Source: Tilletia caries (Eukaryota > Basidiomycota > Exobasidiomycetes > Tilletiales > Tilletiaceae). From it: DNA of 64,000 bases. The notes under the pieces were generated by a model. The model did no database searches. It was not told where the DNA came from and was given only the letters and a program-made list of their open reading frames with translations. Each line of letters opens with the position of its first letter. Positions within the stretch are counted from its first letter, which is position 1. Below, in pieces: positions 47,810-54,666 of this stretch. The stretch lies in the NCBI GenBank assembly GCA_032718865.1, contig JALUTQ010000045.1, positions 1,736,001 to 1,800,000 on the forward strand, given 5' to 3'. Made by a program: the position numbers and the translations under genes.

Positions 47810-47818
47810 GTTCGTTGG
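47810..47818 (+). repeat. 9-bp target duplication of the DUF6589-RecQ transposon (left copy)
   Basis: GTTCGTTGG directly precedes the left TIR and is repeated without a mismatch at 54658-54666. Confidence 0.92.
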
Positions 47819-47990
47819 TAGTCTCATAGTTCAGACTATCGTTACGGTCGAGTGTGCGTGAGCTGTGTGTGAACGCGTGATCTTGTTGTGTGGTGATCAC
47901 GCGTCACAGTGTGTCACGTGGCAGCAAAAGCAAACGCCGGAAGCTGCCAGTGACAGCACACTGCACTGACCGTAAGGTAGTCTGATCCCA
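47819..47990 (+). repeat. Left TIR of the DUF6589-RecQ transposon
   Basis: It contains, in order, AGTCTCATAGTTCAGAC, CGTTACGG, TGTGTGGTGATCAC, TGTGTCACGTGGCAGC, AAAAGCAAACGCCGGAAGC and AGTCTGATCCCA. Each block recurs inverted at 54513-54657. The palindromes TGATCA and CACGTG occur inside it. Confidence 0.9.
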
Positions 47991-48029
47991 ACCCTCAATG
48001 GAATCGACACTTTTCACCACCACGACCCA

Positions 48030-51000
48030 ATGTCCCAAGCAAGTCACACAGGTCAACGCGCTGGGTTCCAAAACCCTCCCTCCCCAAGTTTCGAGCCGAT
48101 CCGATCACAGGATGGCGAGATATGGACTTTTGACTCCAGGTGAGTAGTAGCCTGTAGCTGAGACCTAGGTGAGCATGGCTTGACCGCTGAGCAGCCTTTG
48201 ATCCTCAACAGAGACGTAGGTAGCGGCACTGAGAGCAGCAGCAGTAGCAGCTCAAGTGAATGCCACCAAGCCCAGGACGGCAATTGGCTCGATTCGGACG
48301 AGGAGATGGCCGACGATCCCGACCAGCTTTCCTCGCGGCGTCGACTACAGAATCCCGACATCAAACACTTCTTCAAGTACCTAGACGACAGGAACATCAG
48401 CTGCGGAACGCTCATCCGGAACCTGTTCGACGTGGACGCATCAAGATATTTCCCTGAGGTTCGGAATCTGCTGCAAGTACACGTCAAGCCCTTCTTCCAC
48501 TCTCAGTCAGCCTACGCGTTCGTCGCCGCGTCCGAAGGCGCAAAGAAGGTCGCGCTGGGGTCTGTTGTCGACGAGATCAAGCGCGAAGGGAAGCGCGCGG
48601 CCCGGATGCCCGAGATTCGCCGACCTCCGTCAATGGATCGAGCAGAGGACATCAGGACGTACCGATTCGCCGACGCCATGGACGACATCGCTCGCACCAT
48701 GCCCTTCACGAAAGCCGTCATCGCCGCCATTGCGACGTCAAGCGAGGACGAGGAAGAAGCACCGAGCGCAGACCTCGTAGCTGTCGCGCAGTCCTTGGCC
48801 GACCTACCTAGGTCTTCCACTCCGCCGCCGGTCGAGCGCAAGGCGGACGTCGACATTTCTGCAACAGCACTGGATCAGATGCGCGAAGCGTGGGAGGATG
48901 TGGAGGATCTCGAAGAGGATTCCAACCAGAATGCGGAGGACGGTCGGGACGATCTCTCACAACAGGAGCCCGATAAACCGAAAGCGGTGAAGGGAGCCAC
49001 AGTCTTGCGGCGAGGCAGTCGATCTCCGAACATAGTGAGTCCTACTCTCTTTCCTCCTGTCGAAACGCTTCAACTGTGGCTGATACTCATGCTTACGCTC
49101 ACGTTCTGATCGGCTATCTAAGATCTGCACTGCTGCCACCCTCTCGCTCTTGTTCTCCAGACACCAACGAAATTCACGATTCGCTCTCACCCTCAGCCTT
49201 TTTCTTTTTGCATCGCGAACTCCACGACGGGTGATCGAAGTCCTGAGTCGACTGGGCATGTGTGTGTCATACATGACAGTCCTCCGAATAGTCAACGATC
49301 TGTCACGAAAAGCACAGAAGCAGGCACGGTCGGCGCTCCTCGACAAAACAAAAATCCACGTCTTTGGATACGACAACATTAACTGGCAGCAAAAGGTCAA
49401 CAACGTCGGCACCGGCCACACCACGTCGATGAAGGCAGCGACTCACGGCACGATCTACGAGGTGGATCCATCGACCAAGCTTCACGAAGGTCCGATTCAC
49501 CCGGTCTGTCATCCTCAAGTCTTCAAAGACTTGTTCGGCGAGGACATGCCGCATCCAACCACAACTCCGACAAGTCTGGTGGCTCCCGAGGATCCTGCCC
49601 TCATGCTCAAACTGCGAAGGAAGAGGGATCAGATGCGCAAGCAAGCACTGCCCGCCCAGCTTCAGCCCGCCGACATCTTGCTCGGAGACGAAGACGACGA
49701 GCACATTGTGCTAGCAATCCTCAGTCACGTCCGGAAGGAGTTTCTGCAGCGGCACTCCTCGATCAAATTCGACCCAGAGAAACAGCCCATTCCTGAGCCC
49801 CCACAGGTGTGGCCGCAGATGCTCCGCAAGACCAAGGTGATCCCCTTACCAGTACTCGACGTCGACGAGGGCACGACGAAAGGGAACCTTGAGGTTTTCA
49901 AGCAGTACTTCCGGTTCCAACTCCAAATTCCCGACTCGTTCTGGCGAGAGAACGTGTTGTTCACCTCCGCAGATGTCTACTCCGTCGAGAAGCTCAAGAC
50001 GGGGCAAAAAGGTCGGCAACTAGACCGCTCATCGCAAGAATTCGACCGCTTCTCTGCACAGCATCCTCTCGCTGCTCCCTGGCATCTGATGGTAAGTGTG
50101 TCTGATCAGGCATCGTCATTCTTCATGCATTTTTGACCATGCTCTCTCCCTTCCAGTATGCATACATGCGCTGCCTCTTCTCGACATATGGAGGCTCGAA
50201 GGAGAACGCCAGTTTCATCAGCTTTCGACATCTTTCAGAACGAAATGGCTTCCGGCACCTGCTTTCCATCCCACACAACTTCCACGACGGTAATCGCTTC
50301 CTACACTTCTGGTTCTCTGCTGCGAGTGTATCTGTTGTCGCCAACGCTCTCCGCAAGCACCGGCAGCCTCCAGAAGAGAACGACGGCCAGCAAGACGAAC
50401 CTGCACCGGCGCGACGAGCAGGTACACAGCGTCCCGAGGAGGCTGTTTGTCCTTCGACAGGTCTTCAAGAATGCGAGCATCCAAAGGACGAGTTTGACGA
50501 CCTCGACTACGAAACATTCATGCGAATCAGCGAGGAGGCCGTACGGAATATGATTGGGACAGGATCTTCCGACATGGTGGACGAGCATGAGCATCAAGAC
50601 GGCTTTGCCTTGCAAAGCAGGTTGATGCTCCTCGACATTGGTCTGTTCATCGAGCTTCAGCACGCGATCAAGAACGGCGATCCAGGACGGGTGCTGGTGG
50701 TCATCAAGCAGCTGGTTCCACGATTCCAGGCATCTGGCCAACACAACTACGTCGCCGAACTGCTGGATATCCTTGTGACGATTCGCTACGAGCTACCTCC
50801 CCCTCTGCGTGCCGTCATGCTCTCAAGTTTCCTCGTCAATCCTAAGGGCAAGCCGGACACGTTCACTCCCATCGACCACGTTCAAGAAAACTTCGTCTTC
50901 GAGCTCAAGAACTCGTGGCCTGTGGGAGGAACAACGAAGTCACTCCAGTACAAGAGTGTTATCGGCTCGCTGCTGGAGGTCCTTTCGAACTTGAAGATGG

Positions 51001-51500
51001 GCTTCTGGAAGGACTTGGGTATCAGTGGCCAAAACCAAGAGCATTCGGACAAGAAGAGGAACGCTACCATCGACTCTCTCCGGATCGACTTCGATCGTTA
51101 TGCGGTCTTCGAATGGGATCAAGCGGGACGGAGCTGTGACACCTTCGAGGTACTGCGCGGCGATACTGTCAAGGAAAAGAAGGACCGACTGAGGAAGCAG
51201 GGCAGGCCAGTCGGACGGGTTCGGCAGCTGAAGAACGTGGCCTGCGACATGTTCAAGACCGGTATGCTCGCACTCGAAGGCAAGACAAGTGCCACCGGCA
51301 CGTTTCAGCGATGGGTCAGGCGTCGAGCAGCAGCGATGAACAAGGAGGGAGCTGCTTCCATCACGATTGACGATCAAGACGCTGTCGACATTCCTGACGA
51401 CGATGACGACGACGTTGTCGATGGAGAACCTTTCGGTATCAGCGTTGTATCGGGTAACGTCGACGAGTTCGAGGAGCTGGGAGATGACAATGGAATCTAG
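48030..51500 (+). CDS. DUF6589 protein, candidate DDE-type transposase
   Basis: Exons 48030-48139, 48212-49034, 49123-50091 and 50157-51500 are joined with matching phases, giving 1,081 aa. The N-terminal 300 residues are acidic and Ser-rich. From about aa 312 the sequence follows DUF6589 as I recall it: RRVIEVLSRLGMCVSYMTVL, then FGYDNINW (Asp about aa 395), APWHLMYAYMRC (about aa 630), FRHLLSIPHNF, IDHVQENFVFELKN (Asp and Glu about aa 874-877), and LGISGQNQEHS (His near aa 930). The Asp...His...Glu spacing suits an RNase H-like, DDE-type nuclease fold. The C-terminus is acidic. The gene starts about 40 bp inside the left TIR and shows no frame break. The transposase role is inference from context. 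Confidence 0.8.
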
Positions 51501-51519
51501 TGCATTCCAAATACGCAGA

Positions 51520-54262
51520 CTACTTCTTCTTGGTCTGGACGGTCCTCTGTTTCCTCGAAGTAGCTCGAGCATACAGTCCAGCCATCCACATCTCTGCCCA
51601 GGTCTCTCCTTCCTCCGGCTTTCGTTGCTCGAGCCATGCCTTGGATGGGCATACTTTGTTATCACCTGTAGAACCCCAAGGTGAGTATCATGAACGAGGT
51701 AGTGTGAAGGCACACAGCGCCATACTCACTTCGATGGCCTCTTTCTTCCACCGTACCAGCACCAGTTCTGCGGTTGATCTCCTTGCAGATCGTGCACTCG
51801 GAGACCTACGGCGGCAAAGGATTCTGATCAGATGGGCATTGTAGGAGAAGTCGCTGCTGCTGAAGGTATGTACTCACGGTTGTGTTGGATCCCGACGCTT
51901 CTGCCTGCTGAGCTTGCTGAACAGCTTGCTGCACGCGCAGTTGACGATCTCTCTCCGCACGCAGCATCCGCTCTGCTTCTCTCTTCTTGCGAATCTCCTC
52001 CGCCCTCTGCTGAGCCGCTCGCTGAACTTCTTCCCGCTCCTGCTCCCTCCTCTCCCGGTCTTCCCGCAGCAGATCCTCAACTACGACTTGGAGCTCCGGC
52101 AACACTTCCGACTTCAAGCGCATGTTGACGAACGAACTCAAACGTGAGTCGCCTTGCTCGATATTGTGGTCAATCGTCTTGAGGTTGCTGACGACGGATT
52201 CGATGGCTTGCATGCTCAGGAAGGCATCGATGCCCATTCTGCCTGCTCGGTTGGTTCCTTTCCATTTCGTTCGCCACTGCTCTGCCCGCCACTCCTCAAG
52301 GCGGACCTGCAAAGCCTTTTGAAGAGCCATTACTCCGGGGAGGGCGGGAATCACTGGAGGCGGTGGAGGCTTTCGTTCGTAGGGAAGGTCGGGCAAGGGT
52401 TCAGGATTGCAGGTTGTGCAGCAACGCAGCTTTCGATCATCAGGTACGTGACGACTGGAAGAGTATGGCTCGCTGTGCGTGGGTAACAGCTCTTTCTCCG
52501 GTTGCTGCAGATAATCGAGAACGAGCTGTCGGATGCATGCGGTACGGGCAAGCCCGTGAGCGGACAGTGCGAGGAGCTCGTCATCTACCATCTTGCGCGC
52601 CGCTGGCGCCTCCTTCTCGCCGGCTCGCATCACTGCTGCGTCTTTGGCCAAGGACGGAAGGTCGTCCAGGTGCTGAGGGGCGGGCGGATCTTGAATGGGG
52701 AGAAGCTGTCCGGTTGTCGCGAGGGCCTTCTTCGTTTCCGGATCGATATGCGTCGGTTCGACAAAGCAGATCTCTTCCGCCTCGTCCGCAAAGTCCCTAC
52801 CGGCTCGACCCGCACGCTGCCACCATGCCGAAACGCTGCCGAAAAGCTTGGGCTGGATCACCCTCTTGACCGGACGACAATCGGCGCCCATACCGAAGGC
52901 ATCGGTACAGATCGCGATTAGAGTCTTTCCCGTCAAGATTCGAGAATGAACCACTTCGAGGTGCTCTTCCGACATATCGGCGTGGTAGACATCAACGGCA
53001 TCGTCGAAACCGGCGCGCACACACCACTCGTTGATGACGCGGTGCATTGATGTAGCTAAGTCCTTGTTGTTGATATAGATCAACGTGACAGGGAACTGAC
53101 GCGTTCTTTCCTCTACAGATGCAGCTGAATCGACGCCGTGCCACAGTTCCGGCATGACGGATAGGATATCGAGGAAGGACGCGGCCGGATAGCGCATCGG
53201 CAAGATCCGCAAGAACAGGTTCGGTCGATCGGTGCCCACATCGATGACAGATGGATTACGCAGGTTGAGTGTCGATTGGCAGGCCTCCCGTGCTTCTGGT
53301 GTCAATGTTGCTGACATGATCAGGACAGGGACCGACAGGTGTCTGCGTACTTGTCCAAGCTGGAGGAACTTCGGACGGAAGTCGCGACCCCACTGGTCGA
53401 GCGTGTGTGCCTCGTCGAAGATGAATGCGACGGCTCGTTGACGGAAACGATCATTCCGCAAGACGATGTCGAGGAAATCGCCTTCAGTCGCGGTCTCGGC
53501 GGTCGTGAAGACGAGGCGATACTCGCCATCCCGGATGGATCGCAGGTGGGCTGGGCTCTTGTTGGTGCTGTCCGCGTAGGTTGCACGGTCCTTGAATCTG
53601 TTGAAGGAGGGAAGCATTTAGTGAGTTATGCGGCTCAAGATGATGTCAAGACTGAAGGGTTGGATCGCTAACCTTTCTGCCATCTCTGAGGTCAACGACT
53701 GCAGGGGCTCGATGATCACGATAACCCCGTCTGGGAGCAGGTGATCCAGATGCTCGAATGCTTGTCCTTTGCCGGTGGACGTCGGAGAAATGTAGATCGT
53801 ATCGCGGCCCATTCGCACGCTGTCGGCAACCACAATTTGACTGGGTTTCGGAGGATGGTGAAGATCTGATCGGGCGAGGATGGCGATAGTCTCTGGGCAC
53901 AGCTGTGGAGAGGGAGGATATCATAAAGGTTCATTGGGGAAAAAGAGGAAGAAGCAGGAAGAAGATGTCAGTACTGTTCAGAATAAATGAAGATAAGTTC
54001 AGCATCGTCTCCATTCTCATCAATGGTTTACCTTCGCTCGCTTCGCCCATCTAGTTTCTTCATTCCCGCCCTCGTCTGCGCGCATTCGTTTCCCGAGACT
54101 GCCTTTAGGAATGATTGCGCTGCCGCTATGTGAAGTCCTCGATTGTTGCGGTCGTTGCTGTGCCTGTAATGGCATACATGCGCTCGAATTGGCTCGAAAC
54201 GGGAATACATGAGCACCAAGAGTTGCTCGAGACCTGCAGCTATACATTACCGTGCTCGGCAT
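51520..54262 (-). CDS. RecQ-type DNA helicase with C-terminal zinc tail
   Basis: Exons 54262-54032, 53902-53673, 53597-51878, 51805-51730 and 51665-51520 are joined in phase, giving 800 aa. Exon 1 ends with a basic stretch (KRMRADEGG...RWAKRAK), a likely nuclear signal; the start is less certain. Motifs in order: YISPTSTGKGQ (Walker A, Lys at about aa 122), FIFDEAHTL (about aa 215), MSATLTPEA, CTDAFGMGADC and WQRAGRAGRD (about aa 420), the RecQ motif VI. Walker A has Gly where Ser/Thr normally follows Lys. A Cys pair (CCTTC), a long coiled coil, and a last C-x2-C...H...C unit (ECTICKE...GHRSDNKVC) follow. RecQ helicases unwind DNA; here it probably assists transposition or repair of the donor site. 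It converges on the DUF6589 gene. Confidence 0.83.
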
Positions 54263-54512
54263 CGTTCCTGTTGGTAGTAGTGGAGTATTTGAACTGTGTT
54301 GAGGAGGATAATGATGACGGGAAGGTCAAGGTCTGCGAACAGGTCAGCTAGCACTCTGAGAGGGTCAGCTTTCATCCACCATAACTCGACAACCACTGAT
54401 CAGAATGAGCTCAGACTTGGGCAGCATACGTTTGAGCACATGTATAATCTATTACTGGAGTTTGAGGTCATTCTAGATTGGTCGTTGCAATCTCTAATGG
54501 GCACCTTTGGAG

Positions 54513-54657
54513 TGGGATCAGACTGCCTACGCGGACATCCAAGTGTTGACACTGGCAGCTTCCGGCATTTGCTTTTGCTGCCACGTGACACATGAGTGAT
54601 CACCACACATGCTGGTGATCATCACATGTCCGCAACGGCTGTCTGAACATGAGACTA
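54513..54657 (-). repeat. Right TIR of the DUF6589-RecQ transposon
   Basis: The inverted match to 47819-47990 covers the same blocks, with small indels (for example TCA in place of GCGTCACAG) and substitutions. An internal hairpin TGATCACC...GGTGATCA lies at about 54597-54621. Confidence 0.9.
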
Positions 54658-54666
54658 GTTCGTTGG
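54658..54666 (+). repeat. 9-bp target duplication of the DUF6589-RecQ transposon (right copy)
   Basis: GTTCGTTGG directly follows the right TIR, identical to 47810-47818. Confidence 0.92.

Follow-up and report, generated by a model that had tools for sequence, protein, structure and literature searches.

A 64,000-nt stretch of the genome of Tilletia caries, referred to here as the window, contains at positions 47819-54657 a mobile, discrete unit with exact ends, in which two genes travel together. One gene encodes a protein with the Pfam domain DUF6589 and the other a RecQ-family helicase. We read the element as a recently active DNA transposon of the AcademH type, in which DUF6589 is most likely the DDE/RNase-H-like transposase and the helicase a co-inherited partner; the probability of this reading is put at about 0.85. 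The most useful outcome is that DUF6589 can probably be identified as a transposase.

Ends, duplications and copies of the element

Direct reading and a scan of the sequence agree on the termini TAGTCTCAT (left, 47819) and ATGAGACTA (right, 54657), which are flanked on both sides by the 9-bp target-site duplication GTTCGTTGG (47810-47818 and 54658-54666). The perfect duplication outside inverted repeats that the original prediction had described is therefore present at exactly the positions given. The left terminal inverted repeat tip, TAGTCTCATAGTTCAGAC, occupies 47819-47836 on the plus strand and was recognised by direct reading, copy comparison and the scan; the right tip (54641-54657, minus strand; direct reading and copy comparison) falls one base short of that in the copy on C40. 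Further inwards, an inverted-repeat search found left arms on the plus strand within 47887-47990 (47887-47900, 47910-47959 and 47975-47990; repeat pairs I14, I1 and I9) and right arms on the minus strand within 54513-54609 (54513-54528, 54543-54592 and 54596-54609). These inner arms measure 50 nt (94%), 14 nt (100%) and 16 nt (94%). A foldback within 80 bases of the element ends is predicted, using RNA parameters and without a shuffled control.

The original prediction had looked to further copies for confirmation, and the window's own genome (38.1 Mb in 40 contigs) does contain them, with the gene pair widespread and 9-bp duplications recurring. Copies on C40 and C5 are 99.5% identical to the window element and one on C1 is 94-97% identical; a solo end lies on C40. 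The C40 and C1 copies terminate at the same bases as the window element, in different flanks. CTGACAGCT stands on both sides of the C40 copy, while the C1 copy, which has been split by a rearrangement and nested inserts, shows gtcaaaagg against atcaaaagg (8/9). The C5 copy matches at its left terminus; its right end is altered and it has no duplication. The tip TAGTCTCATAGTTCAGAC has six exact matches genome-wide, namely the left end of the window element, both ends of the C40 copy, the left end on C5, the right end on C1 and the solo end on C40, and a single match with one mismatch, the left end on C1.

The ratio of nonsynonymous to synonymous substitution rates (dN/dS) against the C1 copy was 0.24 for DUF6589 and 0.29 for RecQ, values that mix constrained and decayed time because the C1 copy has itself suffered damage, with one new stop per gene and 8 and 12 indel columns. 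Against the 99.5% copies the ratio ranged from 0.33 to 1.24 on few changes, and the DUF6589 gene on C40 has acquired two new stops. Several copies have received insertions of other kinds. The C5 copy (L018/L019, C5:272593-282345) contains a nested CACTA-like insert of 9.75 kb, which has ends of the CACTG type and a duplication of 2 or 3 bp. A 790-bp insert with an 8-bp duplication and clear inverted-repeat ends lies in the C40 copy (L017), and the C1 copy (L020) holds both a 1,222-bp insert with a 10-bp duplication and clear inverted-repeat ends and a 750-bp insert with a 9-bp duplication and less clear ends.

Diverged relatives were sought by scanning for an inverted repeat accompanied by a 9-bp duplication, at a stricter and a looser repeat setting. 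The stricter setting gave C9a (C9:345843-353208, duplication GGACTGGGG) and C9b (C9:363898-371571, AGCAGCGAG); the looser one gave C7:2096679-2103583 (GGTAAGGGA) and likewise the ends of the window element. Block-shuffled sequence, scanned at about the stricter setting and not at the looser one, yielded a mean of 0.0 matches in two sets of 200 shuffles. Since C9a, C9b and the C7 element were chosen by their duplication, they would alone be circular evidence. The end sequences of C9a, however, located copies on C35, C32 and C34 in which the match stops within 1 base of the element ends, and each of these has a different perfect 9-bp duplication, independently of that choice. On C33, C30 and C35, copies of the C7 family have both termini within 2 bases of those proposed. 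Ten copies were read at both ends for their duplications, a count that includes C7:2096679-2103583 but leaves aside the further C7-type copies and the C9a-type copies on C4 and C36, whose ends were located. Eight have a perfect 9-bp duplication, one has 8/9 and one, with the altered right end, has none. Six of the ten were not chosen by duplication: four are perfect (C40, C35, C32 and C34), one has 8/9 (C1) and one none (C5). The duplicated sequences vary among copies. A chance duplication is rejected in view of the exact ends shared in other flanks and the shuffle mean of 0.0 at about the stricter setting.

An inner end motif close to GTGGGAACSACCGACG is common to C9:363898-371571 and C7:2096679-2103583, members of two diverged families. 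Empty sites, also looked to by the original prediction, were searched for with joined flanks in this one genome, and none was found for either the window element or the C7 element. The left flank of C7:2096679 is itself repetitive and matches seven other genomic places, so this element was probably inserted into another repeat.

The gene pair

The DUF6589 gene lies on the plus strand at 48112-51500 and comprises four exons (48112-48139, 48220-49034, 49123-50091 and 50157-51500) encoding 1,051 amino acids, with Pfam DUF6589 matches in two of them (7.8e-17 and 1.9e-38). The helicase gene, on the minus strand at 51520-54262, has five exons (54262-54032, 53902-53673, 53597-51878, 51805-51730 and 51665-51520) and encodes 800 amino acids. 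In both models, made without transcripts, the splice sites were picked by eye with the homologous locus L027 as a guide. The models agree with the original prediction of two convergent genes whose stop codons are separated by 19 bp (51501-51519).

The main helicase exon contains the Pfam domains DEAD and Helicase_C. The protein matches the model TIGR00614 (recQ_fam) at 6.4e-41, below the curated cut-off of that model, and its best matches by sequence in the PDB are WRN, BLM and bacterial RecQ. Two details of the original prediction were not confirmed. As to the nuclear signal, basic stretches (GKRMR...AKRAK) are seen by eye; as to the zinc tail, cysteines are visible and no zinc model matched in the Pfam search of the main exon. 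All four copies of the window's family (53673-53902 on the minus strand in the window; C40, C5 and C1) have STGKG as helicase motif I, while the helicases of C9a, C9b and the C7 element have GSGKS or GSGKT.

That the helicase is the partner of DUF6589 in a DNA transposon, as originally proposed, is supported by the genome as a whole and by the 9-bp duplications of the diverged families. Searches gave 75 DUF6589 matches, which were merged into 48 loci, and 63 RecQ matches merged into 52, all counts being lower bounds. At least 42 of the 48 DUF6589 loci have a convergent RecQ gene no more than 6 kb downstream, against an expectation of about 0.004 per locus from RecQ density alone. Four of the six unpaired loci have no RecQ within 12 kb, and the other two have a nearby RecQ on the same strand only. 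Even elements with helicases of only about 30% identity to that of the window retain the pairing, which makes a role of the helicase in transposition testable.

The extent to which the partners have diverged together was assessed over 36 pairs, these being the loci scored for both genes, with DUF6589 scores taken from the last exon only. The rank correlation of the two scores was 0.57 over all 36; within the 25 most distant pairs no correlation was seen (-0.27, p 0.20). Ranked by closeness to the window, the same 11 pairs come first whether the last DUF6589 exon or RecQ is used. Co-divergence is thus seen only between a near group and a far group. Ten of the 52 RecQ loci have no DUF6589 match within 12 kb, among them C1:1373019, C10:81440, C21:658503, C3:1359405 and C40:1435825; these could be remnants or genes of the host.

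DUF6589 as the probable transposase

The original prediction took DUF6589 for a transposase of the DDE type, and this is judged probable. The columns of Asp365 (in a YDN motif; codon 49372-49374), Asp565 (49972-49974) and Glu848 (in a DHVQE motif; 50886-50888), the proposed first and second catalytic Asp and the catalytic Glu, are invariant in 10 of 10 aligned homologues, and the invariant acidic residues stand in RNase-H-like order. The fold of the protein had been suggested as a check. The best structural match of a low-confidence model is a hAT transposase (Hermes); Foldseek found no match at E 0.001 or better for either of two models, the first of which (P0001) had a mean pLDDT (predicted local distance difference test score) of 38.9 and was too poor for use. 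The argument for DUF6589 as the catalyst thus combines the conserved acidic residues, the weak structural match and exclusion, because no gene besides the helicase and DUF6589 itself was recognised there.

In protein homologue searches, each confined to about 8,000 candidates, the matches listed were all DUF6589 proteins from Tilletia and Phenoliferia, the closest of them from Tilletia indica with 79-81% identity over the searched part. By this similarity the host would tentatively be another Tilletia or a close relative, given that mobile genes may pass between species. One further protein, P0010, came from a second single-sequence search, and an alignment-based search gave nothing new, with no animal or Academ sequence among the matches listed. 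NCBIfam returned nothing for four DUF6589 proteins beyond one weak match (E 0.056), a PDB sequence search with P0001 gave no match, and a scan of viral contigs found no relative.

As a working model, DUF6589 would bind the inverted-repeat ends, cut them and join them to target DNA nicked with a 9-bp stagger, possibly by a cut-and-paste route. The helicase would probably unwind the ends, target gaps or hairpin-prone termini and might thereby assist in strand transfer or in repair. DUF6589, a Pfam domain of unknown function with at least 48 loci in one genome, would in this way be given a likely role, as the transposase that accompanies mobile RecQ helicases, and annotators could label DUF6589-RecQ pairs as transposons rather than host genes.

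Alternative readings and relation to known transposons

An unlikely alternative is that the element represents a superfamily separate from Academ, which independently combined a DDE-type DUF6589, a RecQ helicase and 9-bp duplications. In its favour, the link between DUF6589 and Academ rests on descriptions rather than sequence, and literature searches on the domain and its Pfam accession PF20231 listed no paper with the name DUF6589; four listed papers contain the string PF20231 and, judged by title, concern other subjects. Moreover, AcademH is described as low-copy in fungi (PMC10799480), unlike the elements of this genome with at least 42 DUF6589-RecQ pairs; this weighs against our placement, though we do not treat copy number as defining. 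On the other side, published AcademH elements already have the helicase, duplications of the same length class and the same host phylum.

A more elaborate version, less likely still, assumes a superfamily apart from Academ whose transposase has a hAT-like fold and whose obligatory RecQ, with the unusual motif I STGKG in the window's family, processes hairpin-forming ends. A likeness to hAT does exist in the spacing between the second Asp and the Glu, 291 residues in P0006 compared with 324 in Hermes. However, hAT elements make 8-bp duplications and are not known to have a RecQ partner; the window element has a RecQ gene, and its 9-bp duplication does not fit hAT.

KolobokH, a Kolobok lineage known only from fungi, likewise encodes RecQ, which in its case lies downstream of the transposase domain (PMC9587614). 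Kolobok duplications are nevertheless TTAA-specific and 4 bp long (PMC9587614), in contrast to the varied 9-bp duplications observed here. That the window element is a KolobokH member is therefore very improbable; the two are set apart by description, not by sequence. It is equally hard to believe that the helicase drives mobility and DUF6589 merely binds the ends. The weakness of the DUF6589 structural model would allow this, but the invariant acidic residues in RNase-H-like order argue against it; fixed-length duplications are typical of a DDE enzyme making staggered cuts, and strand transfer is not an activity known to us for any RecQ helicase. The least credible proposal is that subtelomeric RecQ repeats, adjoining DUF6589 genes by happenstance, were spread by recombination and not transposition: fungal RecQ helicases are often subtelomeric (PMC7473861, PMC4522978), 10 of the 52 RecQ loci are not near DUF6589 and some elements are near contig ends (those on C9 about 40 and 59 kb away), but the ends are exact with 9-bp duplications and other elements are as far as about 0.9 Mb from the closest end of their contig.

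Those subtelomeric helicases share the RecQ core with the element; the accessible text describes them by their place at chromosome ends and mentions no transposase partner. AcademX, the transposase of which is presumed to be related, has a nuclease and 3- or 4-bp duplications (PMC10045372). Since the window element has a helicase and 9-bp duplications instead, identity with AcademX is rejected. The AcademH lineage was reportedly described by Kojima in 2020. It combines a helicase with 9- or 10-bp duplications (PMC10045372) and occurs in Basidiomycota (PMC10045372, PMC10799480); AcademH and KolobokH are credited with DEAD and Helicase_C domains (PMC10799480), and a RecQ helicase is named for Academ (PMC3627910). 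Because AcademH already unites these features, the new superfamily claimed in the original prediction is not supported. That prediction had itself allowed that a published superfamily of the same composition would remove the novelty and leave the call standing, which is what AcademH does. With its helicase, its 9-bp duplications, its terminal inverted repeats and its basidiomycete host, the window element shares these traits with AcademH and is, by described features rather than by comparison with Academ transposase sequences, probably a member of that lineage.
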